From the NCBI RefSeq assembly GCF_000955905.1, contig NZ_CP011097.1, positions 248,001 to 312,000 of the forward strand: a DNA stretch of 64,000 nt, read 5' to 3'. The number at the start of each line of letters is the position of its first letter. Position 1 is the first letter of the stretch. The position numbers and the translations under genes were made by a program. Below the pieces are notes generated by a model that made no database searches, had not been told where the DNA came from, and saw only the letters and a program-made list of their open reading frames with translations. The stretch comes from Candidatus Nitrosotenuis cloacae (GTDB lineage: Archaea; Thermoproteota; Nitrososphaeria; Nitrososphaerales; Nitrosopumilaceae). Positions 19,287 through 43,056 of this stretch are shown here, in pieces.

Positions 19287-20354
19287 ATGGATTATCATAA
19301 TTTTCATGGAAAAAACATTCCTCACATAGAAGTAAATCCAGACATGAAAATTGATGATCTAGTGGAGATCTATGCAAGCTCCGGCTACAATGCAAGACAG
19401 CTTGGAGAAGCCGCAAAACTGTTCCGCAAGATGATTGAAGATGATGCGACAATCTGTCTCACCATTGCGGGTGCCATGACACCTGTTGGCTTTGGAGGCC
19501 TATTCAAGGCACTTATCGAAAAGGGATTTGTTGACTGGATAATCTCTACTGGCTCTAATCTGTATCATGAGGATCATTTTGCGTGGAATTTGCCTGTAAA
19601 ACAAGGGCATTTTGAGGTTGATGATATGATCCTATATCAAAAAGACATTGTCAGAATAAGAGACGTCTACATCAAAGGCGAGGAAACTCTGAAAAAACAA
19701 GATACAATCGTGCAGAAAATGTTTGAGAATAACTTGTTTGAAAAACCATTCACTACTGCAGAATTTGCAAACTGGATGGGCAAATACTCAAAAGAACACT
19801 CGACTCACCCAGAGCGCAGTTTTGTAGTGTCTGCATATGATTACGATGTTCCGCTTTACATTTCAACCCTAAAGGACTCGTCACTTGCGCTTGATCTGGC
19901 ACCGCTCAGACTTGCCAACAAACCGTTCTCTGTTGACTTTGTTAGAGAAATAATAGAGCAGGCTGCAATTCTGTATAATTCAAAAAAGGCAGGAATTGTG
20001 GAAATTGGCGGCGGTGTTCCAAAAAACACTGCACAGCAAACTGGTCCATTGTTGGACCAAATTTTGGGCCTAGGCCACGGCGGACAAAATTATATCATCC
20101 AAATAACTGATGCCAGGCCAGATACCGGAGGCCTCTCTGGCGCAACACTGCAAGAAGGCAAGAGCTGGGGCAAAGTAAAAGACTCTCATGAAGATGTGAT
20201 AGTAGTTTATGCAGATGCAACAATTGCGTTTCCGGTTTTGTGTCTGTATGCACTTAGCATGGAAGGCCCAAGAAAGCCAAAACGACTATACAAAAAGCTG
20301 GACCAATACTACCAAAACCTGTCTGAGACTTATTTTAGCAAAGCAAAAAAGTAA
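19287..20354 (+). CDS. Deoxyhypusine synthase-like protein, divergent active site
   Basis: A 355-residue member of the deoxyhypusine synthase family. The NAD-fold pieces (TICLTIAGAMTPVGFGG; DWIISTGSNLYHED) and the catalytic lysine region GKSWGKVK (K296) are present. However, the GGGVxKHH active-site motif is GGGVPKNT, so the general-base His is absent, and the EFDGSxSGA loop is PDTGGLSGA. It therefore probably does not make deoxyhypusine; transfer of aminobutyl to another polyamine is possible. The authentic paralogue follows 112 bp downstream. Confidence 0.75.
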   Translation: MDYHNFHGKNIPHIEVNPDMKIDDLVEIYASSGYNARQLGEAAKLFRKMIEDDATICLTIAGAMTPVGFGGLFKALIEKGFVDWIISTGSNLYHEDHFAWNLPVKQGHFEVDDMILYQKDIVRIRDVYIKGEETLKKQDTIVQKMFENNLFEKPFTTAEFANWMGKYSKEHSTHPERSFVVSAYDYDVPLYISTLKDSSLALDLAPLRLANKPFSVDFVREIIEQAAILYNSKKAGIVEIGGGVPKNTAQQTGPLLDQILGLGHGGQNYIIQITDARPDTGGLSGATLQEGKSWGKVKDSHEDVIVVYADATIAFPVLCLYALSMEGPRKPKRLYKKLDQYYQNLSETYFSKAKK

Positions 20355-20466: not shown

Positions 20467-21402
20467 ATGGAAGGCAATCGAGCAGTAAAAGACATTTCAA
20501 TAAAAGACGGAGATGACATTCAGAGTATCTTTAATCAAATGGCTCTGTCTGGCGGCTTTGAATCAAGAAACCTTGCCGACGGCCTTGAAATTCTATCAAC
20601 AATGATTAATGACAAGGAATGCGTCAAGTTCCTCTCATTTGTTGCAGCAATCACGTCCACCGGATTGCGTGGAATAATTTCCGATATGCTCAAGAAAAAA
20701 ATGTTTGATGTTGTAATTACCACATGTGGGGCACTGGACCACGACATTGCTAGATATTTCTCAAATTATCTGGAAGGCTCATTTACCTTAGACGATGCAG
20801 CATTATTGGAAAAAAATATCCATAGACTAGGCAATGTGCTTGTACCAATGGACAGCTATGGCCCAATAATTGAGGAAAAGATGCAGGCATTCTTGGAGGC
20901 GGCCTACAAGTCAGGTAAAAGGGAAATGTCCACTGCAGACATTACCAAAATGATAGGCGAAAATCTGGGTGAGGGCTCTTTTCTGTATTGGGCGGCCAAG
21001 AACAACATTCCAGTAGTGGTGCCGGGAATAGTGGATGGCGCAGTAGGCAGCCAGATCTGGATGTTTGCCCAAAAGCATAATGATTTCAAACTTAATGTGG
21101 TAGCAGACAGCGAGCTTCTCTCATCGATTGTCTTCAAGGCAAAAAAGTCCGGCGCATTCATGATGGGTGGTGGAATATCAAAGCATCATACCCTTTGGTG
21201 GAACCAATACCGAGACGGCCTTGATTATGCTGTCTACGTCACCACTGCACAAGAATTTGATGGAAGCCTTAGTGGCGCACTTGTCAGAGAGGCAATCTCA
21301 TGGGGCAAGGTAACACAGAATGCAAAACAAACCACAATTCATGCAGAAATAACTACAATCTTGCCGTTTCTTTATTCTGCACTTTTATCCAAAATAAAAT
21401 AA
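20467..21402 (+). CDS. dys: Deoxyhypusine synthase
   Basis: A 311-residue protein with the canonical motifs: GGGISKHH (general-base His), TAQEFDGSLSGA and EAISWGKV with catalytic K281. The enzyme transfers an aminobutyl group from spermidine (or, in some archaea, agmatine) to a lysine of aIF5A, an essential translation factor. It has its own TATA (AAATTTATAC, about 27 bp before the ATG). A divergent paralogue lies directly upstream and a ureohydrolase of the agmatinase family 7 kb downstream. Confidence 0.85.
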   Translation: MEGNRAVKDISIKDGDDIQSIFNQMALSGGFESRNLADGLEILSTMINDKECVKFLSFVAAITSTGLRGIISDMLKKKMFDVVITTCGALDHDIARYFSNYLEGSFTLDDAALLEKNIHRLGNVLVPMDSYGPIIEEKMQAFLEAAYKSGKREMSTADITKMIGENLGEGSFLYWAAKNNIPVVVPGIVDGAVGSQIWMFAQKHNDFKLNVVADSELLSSIVFKAKKSGAFMMGGGISKHHTLWWNQYRDGLDYAVYVTTAQEFDGSLSGALVREAISWGKVTQNAKQTTIHAEITTILPFLYSALLSKIK

Positions 21403-23708: not shown

Positions 23709-23860
23709 CCTCAGCAGATATTTCTAAAATTATTAAATCTTATCTGAGAAAAATTTTATTTTGTTAAAAATTTGAATTTGTGTGAGATCAATTTTCTTTG
23801 ATCGTTATTTTTGATCTCAATAAGTTTGGCTAGTTTTGTTTGTGGAACGTATACTACGTA

Positions 23861-23879
23861 ATTTTTTGCAAATTATTGC
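23861..23879. promoter_or_regulatory. A/T-rich element, copy 2
   Basis: ATTTTTTGCAAATTATTGC resembles the elements at 19167 and 27878 and sits about 105 bp before the Na+/solute symporter start, a distance similar to the other two copies. Confidence 0.3.
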
Positions 23880-23983
23880 TTTTTTTGCTTCTAAAAACAC
23901 ATTTTTTCTATTCTTTTTTAATTCTAAAACGTATAATACTTGATTTTTATAATATTTATATAATTTTTAGTTATTCGTGTTCT

Positions 23984-25525
23984 GTGGTCGAGGTAAATGG
24001 TTATGGCATTGCAGTAGTTGCTTTTCTTGCCGTCTCACTAATTGTCGGAAGCCTGACGTACAAGCTAGTACAAAAAAGCGGTAGAAGACTAATCGTTGCA
24101 GGAAAAAGTCTGCCACTTGCCATGGTTGGAACAATGCTTGTGGCGCAAGCAGTCGATGGTAACTCGACTCTTGGTGCTATTGCACTCATCTATCAATTTG
24201 GTTTCTGGGCAGGTGTCGTCATACCGATCGGACTGGGAATATGTCTGTTAATGACTGGTGTATTTTATGGAAAAAAGATCAACAAAATGTCCATGTTCAC
24301 CTTGCCTGATTACTATTTCAGAAGATACGGAAATGCCGCGGAAGGAATGTCTGGCATTTTAATGATAATTAGTTTTACCATACTAGTCGCTGGAAATTTT
24401 GCTGCAAGCGGCTTCATCTTGGAGACCGCACTGGGAATACCGTTCCTGTGGGGAATTATTATTGCTGCACTCGTTGTCTTGACATATACAATTGCGGGAG
24501 GATTGTTTGCTTCCGCATATACCGATATTTTCCAAATTTATCTTGCAATTGGTGCATTTTGGGCAGCATTCATCTTCTTTGCAGGAGGATTCTCTGGAGT
24601 TGCATTTGATACAATTCTGGCAAGTGCACCGCCTGCGTATCTTGATCTGTCTGGACTCTTTGATGTAGCCAATGGTGCTTTGATCAACTGGGCCGGAATA
24701 TTGGCATTGGGATTGGGAGATATCGTTGCGCTAGACTTTATGGAAAGAGTGTTTGCTGCAAGAGACCCCAAGACTGCTCGTAGAGGATCATTTATGGCAG
24801 CAGGACTTACGTTCTTTACTGTATTGCCAGTTGGCATGCTGGGAATTGTGGCATTTCACTTTTTGCCGGGACTGGAGGATCCATTCCATGCGTTACCAGA
24901 CCTTGCTATGAATCACATGCCGTTTGCAATTGGCGCGGCAATTCTTATGGGCGTTCTTGGAGCTTCTATGTCTACTGCAAATGGTGGGTTGCTTGCTGTA
25001 TCTAGTGTTATTTCAAGGAACCTGCTTCAAAGAATTATCCGAAAACGTTGGCTAGGCAAAGAATCTTGGAACGACTCCAAGCTGTTGTGGATTACTAGAT
25101 TAGCTGTCATACCTGTAATGTTATCTGCACTTACACTTGGCTATCTTATGCCTCAGCCTGGAGTATATCTGATTCTTGCATTTGATCTTGTATTTGCAGG
25201 TGCACTTGCTCCTCTGACATTGGGATTGTTCTGGAAAAAATCAAACATGCCAGCAGCCATAGTATCACTAATTGTTGGATCCGCAATACGACTATTGATG
25301 TTCTTTGTCATCCCAGTAGAGTGGGCAGGCCTGGACACCATGATACCGCCAATGATCTCATTCCCGCTCTTTATCATAGTGGCCCTTGCTACTCAGAAAA
25401 AGTGGCCTGGCAAAGAAAGACACGATGTCAACGAGTATGTTCCACCAGAGGAAGACGTGATAATGGGTGAGGACCTCAAGCACTTCCAGTCTGCGGCAGC
25501 TGGTGGCAAGAGCTCAGCAATTTAG
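23984..25525 (+). CDS. Sodium:solute symporter (SSS family)
   Basis: 513 residues from the GTG at 23984. This start sits about 25 bp after a TATA (TTTATATAA near 23955); the 48 codons upstream in the ORF are A/T-rich and not protein-like. About 13 membrane helices. Family features include GRRLIVAGKSLPLAMVGTML, FTLPDYYFRRYG and TYTIAGGLFASAYTDIFQ, the conserved core of SSS transporters (LeuT fold, Na+-driven). SSS carriers in ammonia oxidisers can import urea, but nothing here fixes the substrate; polyamines or organic acids are equally possible. Confidence 0.8.
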   Translation: MVEVNGYGIAVVAFLAVSLIVGSLTYKLVQKSGRRLIVAGKSLPLAMVGTMLVAQAVDGNSTLGAIALIYQFGFWAGVVIPIGLGICLLMTGVFYGKKINKMSMFTLPDYYFRRYGNAAEGMSGILMIISFTILVAGNFAASGFILETALGIPFLWGIIIAALVVLTYTIAGGLFASAYTDIFQIYLAIGAFWAAFIFFAGGFSGVAFDTILASAPPAYLDLSGLFDVANGALINWAGILALGLGDIVALDFMERVFAARDPKTARRGSFMAAGLTFFTVLPVGMLGIVAFHFLPGLEDPFHALPDLAMNHMPFAIGAAILMGVLGASMSTANGGLLAVSSVISRNLLQRIIRKRWLGKESWNDSKLLWITRLAVIPVMLSALTLGYLMPQPGVYLILAFDLVFAGALAPLTLGLFWKKSNMPAAIVSLIVGSAIRLLMFFVIPVEWAGLDTMIPPMISFPLFIIVALATQKKWPGKERHDVNEYVPPEEDVIMGEDLKHFQSAAAGGKSSAI

Positions 25526-28033: not shown

Positions 28034-29164
28034 ATGATAAAAATGGGAATGGAATTTTATGGTGAGGACTACAATGGTGCCGATGTTGCACCATTTGTTG
28101 GCATCAACACATTCCTACATCTGCCCTGGATCAGGACCCACAAGGAACTAGTCCAGGTAAAGCCAGATGTTGCAATTATTGGTGAGCCATTTGATTTTGG
28201 AACTACTATTCGTCCTGGAGCGCGTTATGGCCCGCGAGCAATTCGTGCGGCATCTACCATTCCGTCTCCACCATATGAGCGATTTAACATAGAAACAGGA
28301 GCGGATCCATTTGGAACCTTCAAAACAGTAGATTATGGAGACGTCCAAGTCTCACCAGGTGATGTAATTGAATCTCACAAAAGAATGACTCAAAAAGTCA
28401 AAGAGGTTCTCGATGAGGAAGGAATTCCCGTAATGTTGGGCGGGGATCACTCTATAACATTTGCAAACGTTCGCGCCTTTGCTAAAAAATACAAAAACAT
28501 TGGCATGATTCATTTTGATACTCACGCAGATTGTGCACCTCAAGGACTAACCGGCTACAAGTACGACCATGGAGCACACATCAGACGAATCATGGAGATG
28601 GGCTGCCTCAAAGGAAAGAACTACACACTGGTTGGTCCGCGTGGATACTGGCCGGGACGTGACTTGTACAAGTGGATGTCGGATCAGGACTTCCAGTGGT
28701 TTACCATGCTTGATGTTGAAGAATTGGGAATTGACATGATTGCAAAAGAAATCGCCGACAGGGCAAACGATGGCACTGATGCAGTTTACCTTAGCTGGGA
28801 CATTGACTCTTTTGATCCATCTTATGCACCAGGAACTGGTGAGCCGGAACCAAACGGCCTTACCTCAAGGGAGGGAATGAGAATGGTCAGATTACTATCC
28901 AAATCGTTTGATCCAGACAGGTTTGCAATGGACCTGGTGGAAGTAGCTCCAGCATATGATGTGAGTGATAGCAGCTCCTACAACGGTGGTATCACATCTG
29001 GACTAGGACAACGACTGATCATAGAACTCTTGGCTGGACTATCACTAACAAAGAGAGGCTTGGAAAATGGTGACCCTGTACGACCGCACGAATATCGTGG
29101 AACCGGAAACACATATCACTTTAATAAGGATATTCCGCGTCCAAAAATACCAAAGCGAGATTGA
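28034..29164 (+). CDS. Ureohydrolase (agmatinase/guanidinase-like arginase family)
   Basis: A 376-residue arginase-family enzyme. The binuclear-metal ligands are all visible: H139 in GGDHS, D162/H164/D166 in FDTHADC, and D256/D258 in SWDIDSFDP. Such enzymes hydrolyse a guanidino group to urea plus an amine (agmatinase) or ammonia (guanidinase). It is longer than many agmatinases (about 300-320). Start: ATG at 28034, with another ATG five codons later. It heads a tight operon with a urease-gamma-like protein (4-bp overlap) and a nickel/cobalt-type permease, which hints that the metal is nickel rather than manganese. The urea product could feed the urease at 38-43 kb. Confidence 0.85.
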   Translation: MIKMGMEFYGEDYNGADVAPFVGINTFLHLPWIRTHKELVQVKPDVAIIGEPFDFGTTIRPGARYGPRAIRAASTIPSPPYERFNIETGADPFGTFKTVDYGDVQVSPGDVIESHKRMTQKVKEVLDEEGIPVMLGGDHSITFANVRAFAKKYKNIGMIHFDTHADCAPQGLTGYKYDHGAHIRRIMEMGCLKGKNYTLVGPRGYWPGRDLYKWMSDQDFQWFTMLDVEELGIDMIAKEIADRANDGTDAVYLSWDIDSFDPSYAPGTGEPEPNGLTSREGMRMVRLLSKSFDPDRFAMDLVEVAPAYDVSDSSSYNGGITSGLGQRLIIELLAGLSLTKRGLENGDPVRPHEYRGTGNTYHFNKDIPRPKIPKRD

Positions 29165-29550
29165 CTCTCATCAAGATAACCGTAAAGGGGGAACCAGATG
29201 TTTCTCCTTTTACAAGAACTTTTCAGTATTCCAGCAAAGCAGACGAGCAGATCTTTACCAATCTCATAAGTATGGTAAAGGACAAGCTGGACCGAAATCT
29301 TCGAATAAACATCAACGAAGCCATTACCGTATTTTCCGCACTAGTTGTTTCTGAGCTTAAGGGGGGCAAATCAATTGAGCAAATCCAAAAAAACGCATCC
29401 ATTCTACTAAACCCAGAACAAGTAATGATAGGAGTTCCAGAGACCTTGCAACAAATGTCATTTGAGATAACACTGGATGATAATACCAAAAGACTGATTG
29501 TACTGAATACTCCAATTAAAATCTCGGACTATATCCTAAAGCCTGCTTGA
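29161..29550 (+). CDS. Urease gamma-subunit-like protein (stand-alone)
   Basis: A 129-residue protein with a TTG start overlapping the ureohydrolase stop. From residue 25 it follows the urease gamma (UreA) pattern: RNLRININEAI matches [11 protein letters not shown] of the true UreA in this window, KGGKSIEQIQ matches [40 protein letters not shown] matches [30 protein letters not shown]. It carries about 25 extra N-terminal residues. No beta or alpha urease gene is adjacent and the real ureA lies at 39929. It is probably a partner of the ureohydrolase. I know of no described function for this arrangement. Confidence 0.7.
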   Translation: MTLIKITVKGEPDVSPFTRTFQYSSKADEQIFTNLISMVKDKLDRNLRININEAITVFSALVVSELKGGKSIEQIQKNASILLNPEQVMIGVPETLQQMSFEITLDDNTKRLIVLNTPIKISDYILKPA

Positions 29551-37851: not shown

Positions 37852-39564
37852 TCAGAACAAGTTGTATAGTCTTGCAAGTGGCACACTAGTGGCTGGCTTT
37901 GTTGTAGCTATTTTGCTGTCAATTTTTACCTGATACGTCTCTGGATCGATTTCTATTTTTGGCGTGGTGTCATTGAGAACCATGTCTTTTTTGCCAATGT
38001 TTCTACAATTCCTTACTGCAAGGAATTTCTTTGAGACACCAAGCTTGTCCTCAAGGCCGTTTTCTAGTGCAAGTTTTGATGTGAATACAAAGGAGATCGC
38101 TTGCTTTGCTTTTCCCAATGCTCCAAACATCGGCCTGTAATAGACTGGCTCTGTGGTGGGAATTGATGCATTTGGGTCACCCATCAAGGAATATGCAATC
38201 ATTCCACCCTTGATTATCATTTTTGGCTTTGCGCCAAAAAATTGCGGAGACCAGACTATGATATCTGCTATTTTGCCTGGCTCCAAGGATCCGACATATT
38301 CAGATATTCCATGAGTTATTGCGGGATTGATTGTTATTTTTGCCAAGTAACGCTTTACTCTGAAATTGTCATTGTCACCTGTTTCATTTTGGTGCCTCCC
38401 TGAGATCTTTTTCATCTTGTCTGCGCTCTGCCAGTTCCTAGTTGTTACCTCGCCAATTCTGCCCATTGCTTGACTATCCGATGACATCATGCTTAGTGCG
38501 CCAATGTCATGAAGTATGTCCTCTGCAGCTATTGTCTCTGCGCGGATTCTTGATTCGGCAAATGAGACGTCTTCTGGAACGGAAGAATTGAGGTGATGAC
38601 AGACCATCATCATGTCAAGATGCTCATCAAGTGTGTTTACCGTAAATGGTCTGGTGGGGTTTGTAGATGATGGCAAGATGTTTGCCTCACTCGCTATTTT
38701 CATAATGTCTGGGGCATGGCCTCCGCCTGCGCCCTCTGTGTGGTATGTGTGAATTGCCCTTCCGGCAATTGCAGCTATGGTATCATCAACATAGCCACAC
38801 TCGTTTAGTGTGTCCGTGTGTATGGCAACCTGGGTATCTGTCTTGTCGGCAACTCGTAGTGCCGCATCTATTGTTGCTGGCGTGGTACCCCAGTCCTCGT
38901 GCAGCTTGAGCCCACACGCACCCTCCCGTATCTGATCAATCAGTGATGCTTCTTCGGAGTCATTGCCCTTTCCCAAAAATCCAAAATTCATGGGAAATTC
39001 TTCTGTAGCCTCTATCATTTTGTGTATGTACCATTTTCCTGGAGTGCATGTTGTTGCATTGGTCCCATCTGCCGGACCCGTTCCGCCACCGATCATGGTG
39101 GTAGTACCGCCACAAATTGCGTCGATTGTCTGCTGTGGAGAAATAAAATGAATGTGCGTATCCACCGCACCGGGGGTGCAAATCAAATGTTCGCCAGAAA
39201 TCACCTCGGTGTTTGATGATATTATAATGTCAACTCCGTCCATGATGTTTGGATTGCCAGCCTTTCCAATACCTGCAATCTTTCCATCCTTGACTCCAAT
39301 GTCTGCCTTGATTATTCCAAGGATCGGATCAAGCACAATTGCGTTTGTAATTACCAGATCCACTGAATCATTGCGGCTAGTGCCACTTGCCTGTGCCATT
39401 CCATCACGTATGCTCTTTCCCCCACCAAAGACTGCCTCATCTCCATACCTGAGCAAGTCCTTTTCAATTTCTATGATTAGGTCCGTGTCTCCTAGCCTTA
39501 CCTTATCTCCAATGGTGGGGCCAAAAAGATCCACATACTTTTTTCTTGGAATCTCTAGTGTCAT
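37852..39564 (-). CDS. ureC: Urease alpha subunit
   Basis: A 570-residue catalytic subunit, full length. The di-nickel ligands are present: H137/H139 (DTHIHF), carbamylated K220 ([10 protein letters not shown]), H249 (AIHTDT), H275 ([11 protein letters not shown]) and D363 (SSDSQAMGR). The flap Cys322-His323 (VCHHL) is also kept. It hydrolyses urea to ammonia and carbamate in the cytoplasm, feeding ammonia oxidation. Last gene of ureABC; its start overlaps the ureB stop by 4 bp. Confidence 0.96.
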
Positions 39565-39932
39565 GCGCCCCGAAATCCTCCCTTTTTGGCCTTCTCTAGT
39601 GCATCTGATTTCTTTTCAGACAATGGTCCATTAACCAGTCCACTAAATCCAAAAACGATTCTTTTTCCACCGTATTCTGTTAGCTCGACGCTTTTTGTCT
39701 CGCCCGGCTCAAATCGAATAGATGTGCCTGATGCGATATTGAGATGAAATCCATATGCCTGCTCACGCACAAACTCAAGGGCCTTGTTTGACTCAAAAAA
39801 GTGTGTATGAGAGCCAACCTGAATCGGCCTATCGCCGGTGTTTTTGACTGATATTGTGATTGTTTTTTTTCCCTGGTTTGCAATTATTGGTTTCTCAGAG
39901 ATGAAATATTCGCCAGGTATCATATGCATCAC
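39561..39932 (-). CDS. ureB: Urease beta subunit
   Basis: A 123-residue structural subunit with the typical [44 protein letters not shown] start and [12 protein letters not shown] core. The C-terminal ~20 residues are Lys-rich, as usual. It overlaps ureA and ureC by 4 bp each (ATGA), so the three are translationally coupled in equal amounts. Confidence 0.95.
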
Positions 39933-40231
39933 ACAATTGGATCATGGACTGTGACCAGCTTTGTTCCGTCATCAAAAGTAGCTTCGACTTGTATGGTGTG
40001 GATTATTTCCGGCACTCCTGGCAGGACATCATTCTTTGTTAGAACTCTTCTGCCGGAGCTCATCAAGTCTGCAACGGACTTGCCGTCCCTTGCCCCTTCT
40101 AGTATATGATCAGTTATAATGGCAACTGCCTCTGGATGATTAAGCTTGAGGCCTCTTGTTTTTCTCTTGCGTGCAAGCTCTGCTGCCAAAAAAATATGTA
40201 ATTTATCTATCTCCCTTGGAGTCAAAAACAT
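39929..40231 (-). CDS. ureA: Urease gamma subunit
   Basis: A 100-residue subunit with the classic [35 protein letters not shown] opening and [26 protein letters not shown] end. First gene of the minus-strand ureABC unit; its promoter region is shared with ureEFGD. A second, unlinked gamma-like protein is encoded at 29161. Confidence 0.95.
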
Positions 40232-40309: not shown

Positions 40310-40807
40310 TTGCTTAAGGTTGAAAAAATTATAGGAAATGTTTTTGAGAATCCTGAGCTTGCAAAAGAATTCGAGTCTAATTCATACAATGAAAACTACA
40401 AGACAGTAAGCATTTCACGCTATGATCTTGAAAAAACAAGACTAAAGCAAAAAGCATCTGATGGCACACAAATCGGGATTAATCTTGATGGTGGCAAAAA
40501 AATGGCGCACGGAGACGTGTTTTATGGTGATGATGTAAAAGTCCTAATACAACAAATCCCAGAGCAAACAATCTTGGTAAGGTTTGCAGGCCTTGAGCCA
40601 AAACTTCTCGTCCTAATTGGGCACATCATAGGCAATCTGCACAGGCCTGTCTCTTTGGAGGCTGATTCTATCTCATTTCCTATTCATGATAAAGGGGAAA
40701 TTGATCTGTTTAGGACGCTATTTCGGGACTATGTGGATAAAATCGAGCTAATTATAGAGGAGAAAATTTTTCAGCCTCACAAATCAATGAATGTCCATGA
40801 GCACTGA
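40310..40807 (+). CDS. ureE: Urease accessory protein (nickel metallochaperone)
   Basis: A 165-residue UreE-like protein. The N-terminal domain (residues about 1-80) is followed by the metal-binding domain with PEQTILVRFAGLEPKLLVLIGHIIGNLHRPVSLEADSISFPI, where the His of GHIIGNLH matches the nickel-binding region. The C-terminus has only three histidines (FQPHKSMNVHEH), not a long His tail. TTG start 28 bp after a TATA. It overlaps ureF by 17 bp. Confidence 0.88.
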   Translation: MLKVEKIIGNVFENPELAKEFESNSYNENYKTVSISRYDLEKTRLKQKASDGTQIGINLDGGKKMAHGDVFYGDDVKVLIQQIPEQTILVRFAGLEPKLLVLIGHIIGNLHRPVSLEADSISFPIHDKGEIDLFRTLFRDYVDKIELIIEEKIFQPHKSMNVHEH

Positions 40808-41489
40808 CTTTTCCAGCCTCAGTATGATGCAGCTATCTGACTCTTTCTTCCCAGCTGGGCTCTATACAATGTCAAATGGGCTTGAAACCCTATACCACCA
40901 AAAGATGGTAATCAATGCAGATGGCGTAAAAGAGCTGATTCAAACGTATTATCTGCAGCAAGTGGGGCCTGCCGACTGTGTAGCGCTTGCAAATGCATAT
41001 GATTTTGCAATTCATGGGGATCTTGGTGGTGTCATGTTGGTTGATGATATTATTTGCAAAATCAAACTGGTAAAGGAGCAGCGAGAGGCATCGATGCGAT
41101 CCGGAAGACAGCTCATCAAGTGTGTCTTAGCACTTGGGAATAACCCGCTCATCACACAATATCACAATGAAATCATAAAATCTCACACCCCTGGGACATA
41201 TCCAGTATCTTTTTCCGTTGCCGCACAAGCATTTGGCATATCAAAACAAAATGCTTGTCTGATGTTGTTTTATGGATTTGGAGTGAGTATAGTCGGAGCT
41301 GCACTGCGCCTTGGAATAATACAGCACATTGAAAGCCAGCAAATACTAGACTCACTCAAGCCAATAATCAGTGAACAAGTAAACAAGTACATCTCAAAAC
41401 CATATGATCAAATTTGGCAGTTCTCGCCACAAGCGGACATTTTTCAGATGCACCATGAAAAAATGGAAGCAAAAATGTTCATAACATAA
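40791..41489 (+). CDS. ureF: Urease accessory protein UreF
   Basis: A 232-residue, all-helical protein with the family start LSMMQLSDSFFPAGLYTMSNGLET and a middle region around HTPGTYPVSFSVAAQAFGISKQNACLMLFYGF. UreF joins UreD and UreG on apo-urease and gates nickel insertion. It overlaps ureE and precedes ureG by 11 bp with an AGGAG-like ribosome-binding site. Confidence 0.9.
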   Translation: MSMSTDFSSLSMMQLSDSFFPAGLYTMSNGLETLYHQKMVINADGVKELIQTYYLQQVGPADCVALANAYDFAIHGDLGGVMLVDDIICKIKLVKEQREASMRSGRQLIKCVLALGNNPLITQYHNEIIKSHTPGTYPVSFSVAAQAFGISKQNACLMLFYGFGVSIVGAALRLGIIQHIESQQILDSLKPIISEQVNKYISKPYDQIWQFSPQADIFQMHHEKMEAKMFIT

Positions 41490-41500
41490 GGAGAAAGACA

Positions 41501-42151
41501 ATGCCAAAAAGAATCCCAAGAATTGGAATCGGCGGCCCAGTTGGCTCTGGAAAAAGCATGCTGATTGAAAAAATAGTTCCAGTGCTTGCAAAGCGTGGCT
41601 ATAGAATCTGTGTCATATCAAATGATGTCATCTCAAAAGAAGATGCAAACAGAATCAGAAAAAACCTGGCAACAGAGCAGGGATTGCTGCCTGAAAACAT
41701 GGTAATTGGAATTGCCACCGGCGGATGCCCACACACTGCAATACGTGAAGACCCCTCCATGAATTTGGCACTAATTGAGGAAATCGAGCAAGAGCATACT
41801 GAGCTTGACTTGATAATTCTTGAAAGCGGCGGTGATAATGTAATGACCACATTCAGTCCGGCTCTGGCGGATTATTTTATTTACATAGTTGATGTCTCAG
41901 GCGGAGACAAGTATCCAAGAAAGGGAGGACTCGGAATAGAATCATGTGATCTGCTGGTGATTAACAAAATTGATCTTGCTGGACTGATCAATGCCGACCT
42001 TTCAGTCATGGACAGGGATGCAAAAACACTCCGCAAAGGAAAACCGCACGTGTTTGTAAATTGCAAGAATGACACCGGCATAGAACAAGTAGTCAGTCAC
42101 ATTGTAGAGGATCTGCTTTTTGAGGAATTGCCAAAGGCGCATTACACATGA
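41501..42151 (+). CDS. ureG: Urease accessory GTPase UreG
   Basis: A 216-residue SIMIBI-class GTPase. P-loop GGPVGSGKSML, the metal-binding ATGGCPHTA (Cys-Pro-His), ESGGDN and the G-specificity NKID are all in place. GTP hydrolysis by UreG drives nickel delivery to urease. Being near a ureohydrolase with a urease-gamma-like partner, it might also serve that enzyme (inference). It overlaps ureD by 4 bp. Confidence 0.95.
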   Translation: MPKRIPRIGIGGPVGSGKSMLIEKIVPVLAKRGYRICVISNDVISKEDANRIRKNLATEQGLLPENMVIGIATGGCPHTAIREDPSMNLALIEEIEQEHTELDLIILESGGDNVMTTFSPALADYFIYIVDVSGGDKYPRKGGLGIESCDLLVINKIDLAGLINADLSVMDRDAKTLRKGKPHVFVNCKNDTGIEQVVSHIVEDLLFEELPKAHYT

Positions 42152-43056
42152 TTCCACTAGGAAAGCTGGAAAAAATACCGGCAGAGTTTGAGCAATACCT
42201 ACAAGATGATTCCAATATTGTTGAAAAAACAGGCATTCTGAAAATCTCACTAGAGATGGACCAAACAAAAAACAAGACCATAGTGATACATCAATATTCC
42301 AAGGCCCCACTCCTTACGCAAAAAGCGCTACATTACGATGTCGCAAATCCATCAATGGCTTATCTGTTTTTGATGTCATCCTCAGGAGGAATTCTCCAAG
42401 GTGATAGATATCACATCGAAATATCGGTAAAAAACAAAGGAATTGCAAACATCACCACACAGGGCGCTACACGAATCTACAAAATGGATTCCAACTACGC
42501 AACCCAGTTTGTGGACATTGATGTGGATGATAATTCCTATCTTGAATTTCTACCAGATCAAATCATTCCGTACAAAAAATCCAGATATTTCCAGCAAGTG
42601 CAAATAACTACAGGATTCGACTCTACATTGGTATATTCAGAGGTGATAACTCCTGGGCGTGTTGCCATGGGGGAATTGTTTGATTATGATCTATGTTATC
42701 TCAGGTTGACTGCAAAAAACAAAGGCGGCAAAATTCTATTCATGGATTCTGCCCGACTTGATCCAAAAGAGCAGCAATTTAGCCAAATTGGAGTTTTAGG
42801 AACCAAGTCTGTTTTTGGAATCCTTTACATCATAACAAAAAAGGAACAACTAGAACAAATCTCAACTGATATAGACGTAATCTTGGATAATGTTGAGACA
42901 ATTGGTGGCTACTCATTTCTACCAGAAGACTCTGGGTTGGTTGTACGACTGATTGGGAATTCCTCTGAAGACATCAAAGCCGTCATACATGACTGTGTGA
43001 GGGTTGTAAGAAAGTACATCCTGAATTCTACATTTGATCAAATTCGGAAAACCTAG
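42148..43056 (+). CDS. ureD: Urease accessory protein UreD/UreH
   Basis: A 302-residue, beta-rich protein with the family hallmarks SSSGGILQGDRYHIEISVK, TTQGATRIYKM and YLEFLPDQIIPYKKSRYFQQ. UreD forms the scaffold and nickel tunnel on apo-urease with UreF and UreG. It ends the ureEFGD unit. The 114-bp gap after it (43057-43170) contains no gene I can support. Confidence 0.9.
   Translation: MIPLGKLEKIPAEFEQYLQDDSNIVEKTGILKISLEMDQTKNKTIVIHQYSKAPLLTQKALHYDVANPSMAYLFLMSSSGGILQGDRYHIEISVKNKGIANITTQGATRIYKMDSNYATQFVDIDVDDNSYLEFLPDQIIPYKKSRYFQQVQITTGFDSTLVYSEVITPGRVAMGELFDYDLCYLRLTAKNKGGKILFMDSARLDPKEQQFSQIGVLGTKSVFGILYIITKKEQLEQISTDIDVILDNVETIGGYSFLPEDSGLVVRLIGNSSEDIKAVIHDCVRVVRKYILNSTFDQIRKT

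Follow-up and report, generated by a model that had tools for sequence, protein, structure and literature searches.

The window, a stretch of 64,000 nucleotides from Candidatus Nitrosotenuis cloacae, contains a set of three genes in which a ureohydrolase (UH), a paralogue of urease gamma (here called UreA-like) and a NicO-type nickel/cobalt transporter follow each other on the same strand, see Table 1. UreA-like starts with TTG, a start codon that is backed by orthologues aligned across it, and it overlaps the TGA of UH by 4 nt, with a gap of 10 nt to NicO. An SSS-family transporter gene lies upstream of UH, and the urease genes ureCBA and ureEFGD are found further downstream. The window also contains a tandem pair of divergent deoxyhypusine synthase genes, which recurs near UH in several relatives, and a short, possibly truncated, RNase HI-like ORF.

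Table 1. Features of the window, followed by the haloarchaeal plasmid orthologues of UH, whose positions are those of the loci named.
Feature	Position	Strand	Evidence
Deoxyhypusine synthase genes, tandem, divergent	19287-20354 and 20467-21402		both PF01916
SSS-family transporter	23840-25525	+	PF00474, 103 bits
UH, arginase/agmatinase superfamily, GTG-E-PEP subfamily, 376 aa	28034-29164	+	PF00491, E 4e-82
UreA-like protein (urease-gamma paralogue), 129 aa	29161-29550	+	PF00547, 47.7 bits; dN/dS 0.18-0.47; single clade 99/98
NicO-type nickel/cobalt transporter, His-rich loop	29561-30319	+	PF03824, 28.4 bits, cut-off 27.7
RNase HI-like ORF, 118 aa	30835-31191		60 bits, cut-off 140
ureC	37852-39564	-	PF00449/PF01979; TIGR01792, 931.6 bits
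ureB	39561-39932	-	PF00699
ureA, true urease gamma	39929-40231	-	PF00547, 157 bits; NCBIfam equivalog cut-off passed
ureE, ureF, ureG, ureD	40310-43056	+	TIGR00101, 239 bits; PF02814, PF01730, PF01774
UH orthologue, L128	11992-13098		
UH orthologue, L129	11989-13101		
UH orthologue, L130	11989-13101		

The sole Pfam match of UreA-like is Urease_gamma (PF00547, E 2.1e-12, against a cut-off of 23.9 bits), and it aligns residues 32-119 of the protein to positions 13-99 of the profile. Solved urease gamma chains match with an E of 8e-10, and BLASTP aligns UreA-like to the genome's own true UreA with 28% identity over 82 residues (E 5e-13). Given these three kinds of match, the resemblance to urease gamma is far beyond chance. 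An earlier note, made from the sequence alone, had proposed a urease gamma paralogue beside a genuine ureA, and the profile search confirms both genes. They are the only two PF00547 loci in the genome, which is a single contig of 1.62 Mb. Its gene neighbourhoods and closest relatives (Nitrosarchaeum, Nitrosopumilaceae) mark the source as an ammonia oxidiser. However, while the true UreA passes the NCBIfam urease-gamma cut-off, UreA-like falls below every equivalog cut-off for this subunit (52.3 against 123 bits and 43.1 against 82.3 bits).

UreA-like has diverged strongly from its relative. Only 5 of 28 UreA-invariant columns, derived from a set of UreA sequences that includes a few duplicates, are retained in at least 70% of the UreA-like proteins; the 23 that are lost include H96, Q81 and F86. 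In addition, most of the first 30 or so residues form an N-terminal extension without a counterpart in UreA. The N-x-x-E, G-V and P-I positions are shared with urease gamma (PF00547, TIGR00193). Among the UreA blocks quoted in the earlier note, N-x-x-[EQ] of the first block and G-V-[PA]-[ED] are indeed conserved in the orthologous family, but GGKS and DDxTK occur only in close relatives and are not signatures of the family. No His or Cys is conserved in the aligned UreA-like family, and the copy in the window contains neither residue. Because of this, we rejected UreA-like as a nickel binder itself; a role as nickel or metal carrier seems unlikely, and a docking role would fit better. A Pfam search detects no DNA-binding or membrane domain in it.

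The UreA-like proteins form a single group against all UreA, with support of 99/98 from 133 columns and with long branches. In six pairs the dN/dS of UreA-like is 0.18-0.47; for pairs of this kind, NicO gives 0.03-0.13 and UH 0.006-0.03. The frames are open in nearly all loci, and the gene is retained across the families of ammonia-oxidising archaea (AOA). The dN/dS values and the few columns kept thus describe UreA-like as a genuine protein that changes quickly but under constraint, and no longer under the constraints of urease. The copy nearest to UreA in the tree comes from genome G062 and is intermediate, with 42% identity to UreA. There, the UH, UreA-like and NicO set adjoins a urease operon with its own ureA, in the order UH, UreA-like, NicO, ureA, ureB, ureC, ureE, ureF, ureG. 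This order looks like the trace of a ureA duplication inside the urease operon. In a Paracoccus plasmid, it is ureA itself that is followed by hupE.

UH passes PF00491 with 276 bits. Together with the metal-binding motifs GGDH (residues 136-139), DTHAD (162-166) and SWDIDSFDP (254-262), which correspond to the GGDH, DxHxD and SxDxDxxDP motifs, this places it in the arginase/ureohydrolase superfamily. It is annotated as agmatinase, and it scores under all NCBIfam cut-offs for agmatinase, arginase and formimidoylglutamase (HutG); for the agmatinase (SpeB) models the scores are 161 against 174.3 bits and 209.3 against 302 bits. The nearest solved chains are guanidinobutyrase 3nio and the guanidinases 7esr and 9fek. 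In N. inopinata, T105, H222, W313 and E344 have been proposed as residues for guanidine catalysis (PMC11410670). UH has T58, H179 and E303 at these positions, but the Trp is replaced by Glu270, and every orthologue compared, from AOA and from haloarchaea, has Glu here. Guanidine was for this reason not accepted as the assigned substrate, and we regard UH as a putative ureohydrolase of a guanidino compound. The genome holds two further arginase-family genes. In published surveys, most AOA have two to three speB copies (PMC10753782) and no guanidine-degradation genes were found in AOA (PMC11410670). The SSS transporter, whose gene is present near UH in 20 of 20 larger AOA regions compared, may import the substrate of UH, or else urea.

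The distribution of UreA-like follows that of UH. In a survey of 101 relatives, it was found only in genomes with UH and in none without it, and every non-urease PF00547 gene adjoins UH. Of 400 genomes drawn from across the class, all species representatives and many in draft form, 85 contain UH. The DNA downstream of UH was read in 60 genomes with a total of 61 loci, and at 55 of these loci UreA-like follows immediately, in most with an overlap of 1-4 nt. Thus, the coupling to a different enzyme proposed in the earlier note holds, but the description as stand-alone does not, as the protein is an operon partner of UH with a 4-nt overlap. The same note found no beta or alpha partner nearby. This is correct for the adjoining genes, which are UH and NicO and not ureB or ureC as for urease gamma, but the window does contain a complete urease cluster at a distance of 8-13 kb. 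NicO comes third in roughly half of the AOA loci, and one family (f8) has many loci in which UreA-like is not accompanied by it. UreA-like keeps its place next to UH even in clusters that have no NicO, so its tie is to UH and not to NicO.

Six AOA loci are exceptions. In G050, G170 and G289, UreA-like is absent and UH runs straight into NicO, while G226, G231 and G274, all from one Nitrososphaeraceae-like genus (g29), have neither UreA-like nor NicO at the locus. No UreA-like is found elsewhere in these six genomes, only the true UreA. In the loci without UreA-like, the dN/dS of UH is 0-0.06. The C-terminal tail that UH has only in AOA (RPxxYRGxGxTYxF...PKRD) is also kept in all six exceptions, so this tail is not supported as a docking site for UreA-like. 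In G201 (L107), the gene downstream of UH is partly masked by a run of N, but both ends are readable and it is counted as present. In the draft of G200 (L094), the UH frame is split into two ORFs, and UreA-like and NicO are open. Outside the AOA, UreA-like was found neither in a scan of close-relative genomes nor in a plasmid collection, and a search of open-licence papers found none on a urease gamma in AOA that is solitary or a paralogue. Haloarchaeal orthologues of UH, annotated 'agmatinase family protein' (e.g. on Haloarcula marismortui pNG700), share 49-51% identity and the GTGEPEP motif with it. An annotated SSS transporter is nearby in two of them and urease adjoins in Natronorubrum; however, they have no UreA-like, no adjoining NicO and no AOA-type C-terminal tail.

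Most ureohydrolases use Mn. We infer nickel in UH from the neighbouring NicO, a His-rich tail in G062, the existence of Ni-dependent ureohydrolase relatives (PMC11399263) and the co-occurrence with urease. The C-terminal tail of the G062 UH (L056 / L081) reads HIHSHKHGHHAHNH; it does not occur in the other AOA orthologues read, and its composition suggests that this protein may handle nickel directly. UreC is present in 76 of the 85 UH genomes against 64 of the 315 others (Fisher p 2e-32, shared ancestry ignored). The nine UH genomes without UreC are all fragmented drafts, and UreG is found in five of them. Moreover, UH is often located within 20 kb of urease. The metformin hydrolase is loaded by HypA/HypB, and chaperone loading has been reported for GdmH (PMC11399263). 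Loading of this type is probably unavailable to UH, because a search for HypA gave no match above the cut-off in any of 60 UH genomes. The urease nickel-insertion machinery (ureE, ureF, ureG and ureD) is instead a candidate nickel source.

The urease-gamma fold thus appears to have been re-used with a different, probably nickel-dependent, hydrolase, since a second gamma homologue is uncoupled from beta and alpha and tied to another enzyme. That this homologue, which has a single origin and is under purifying selection, acts as a partner of UH in some form is probable. We suggest, tentatively, that it is a dedicated non-catalytic partner that aids the assembly or nickel loading of UH, and that it is an AOA duplicate of ureA; this is the best explanation we have. 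In this scenario (i) ureA was duplicated and UreA-like arose once in AOA, (ii) UreA-like would bind UH and aid its assembly and its receipt of nickel, which NicO next door could supply, (iii) the most plausible route would be a docking face, similar to that of urease gamma, offered to UreD-UreF-UreG, and (iv) the active UH would hydrolyse a guanidino compound to give urea, which the nearby urease would convert to ammonia for nitrification. The UreD/F/G link is suggested by the urease activation complex, in which UreD docks on alpha, flanked by beta and gamma (PMC10121161), so that gamma sits beside UreD. It is weakened by the loss of most UreA-invariant residues; with 23 of the 28 columns gone, there is no obvious UreD-binding face that UreA could have passed on. 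We consider a route specifically through UreDFG to be doubtful.

Alternatively, UreA-like could remain attached to the UH hexamer as a permanent subunit, with a structural role in its stability or a regulatory one in setting its activity. Overlapping genes in a fixed order are typical of co-translated subunits, the loss of most UreA-invariant residues is expected with a new partner, and heteromeric relatives are known, as in the metformin hydrolase where the partner is the inactive MefH-beta (PMC11399263). However, UH without UreA-like is equally constrained in haloarchaea and in two or more distinct groups of AOA, and UreA-like changes at a rate far above that of UH. Such a difference is odd for a tight interface with a frozen protein, and it counts, like the loci without UreA-like, against the proposed helper as well. 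Six AOA loci and the haloarchaeal orthologues have UH and no UreA-like, so at least in these lineages UreA-like is unlikely to be an obligate subunit. As UH persists with a frozen sequence in lineages that lost UreA-like, and as the haloarchaeal orthologues at the three loci examined are without it, we favour a helper, although a role in assembly or metal loading is itself held with some reserve, and we rate the permanent subunit as somewhat unlikely.

Fast divergence and dispensability, as well as the proximity of NicO in about half of the loci, would also fit a small operon protein with a UH-related role outside the complex, for instance in regulation or as a transporter partner, that makes no contact with UH. 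This is improbable, as UreA-like accompanies UH in many Nitrososphaeraceae loci with no adjoining NicO, is never found without UH among the 101 genomes and contains no DNA-binding or membrane domain. It is even harder to see UreA-like as a replacement of gamma on the urease alpha/beta subunits, where it could tether UH for urea channelling or form a hybrid urease. The gamma homology and the near-constant presence of UH in urease genomes, often close to urease, agree with such a bridge or decoy, but the lost invariant positions (H96, Q81 and F86 among them), the new N-terminal extension and the retention of true UreA in the genomes checked speak against it. Finally, chance similarity is rejected by the PF00547 score, and a decaying, functionless duplicate, as might be suspected from the six losses and the fast divergence, is hardly credible in view of the selection test in six pairs and of frames that are kept open across AOA families.

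The proposed loading partner can be compared with known systems. In the Synechocystis GdmH operon, an arginase-family enzyme is likewise found with accessory genes, whose products deliver Ni, and UH shares with GdmH the Thr58, His179 and Glu303 positions proposed for guanidine catalysis. However, the accessory protein in AOA is a urease-gamma paralogue and not a HypA/HypB-type chaperone, and the guanidinase Trp is Glu270 in UH. The metformin/dimethylguanidine hydrolase operon, hypA-hypB-mefH alpha-mefH beta-hupE, also combines a ureohydrolase, small partner gene(s) and a nickel transporter, but its beta subunit is itself an inactive ureohydrolase, and HypA/HypB load the enzyme (PMC11399263), while the AOA have a urease-gamma-like partner and no HypA. 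In comammox Nitrospira, a ureohydrolase also feeds urease and nitrification; this guanidinase has the guanidinase residues, no urease-gamma partner has been reported for it and no nickel-loading protein was found (PMC11410670).

For ureohydrolases that obtain nickel without HypA/HypB, the urease-gamma paralogue is a testable loading candidate, conserved beside UH in genomes that have the urease machinery and no HypA. It also offers a clear example of a structural subunit that has found a new use away from its original enzyme. The broader idea, that a duplicated urease subunit became an adaptor through which the urease nickel machinery serves an unrelated arginase-fold di-metal hydrolase, and with it two consecutive enzymes of a pathway, is speculative and, taken as a whole, unlikely. 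The genes point to an unrecognised organic-nitrogen route in AOA, consisting of the SSS transporter, UH (SpeB in the literature) and urease. If the proposal is true, one metal-loading machine would feed two enzymes of a new pathway from guanidino compounds to ammonia in AOA.
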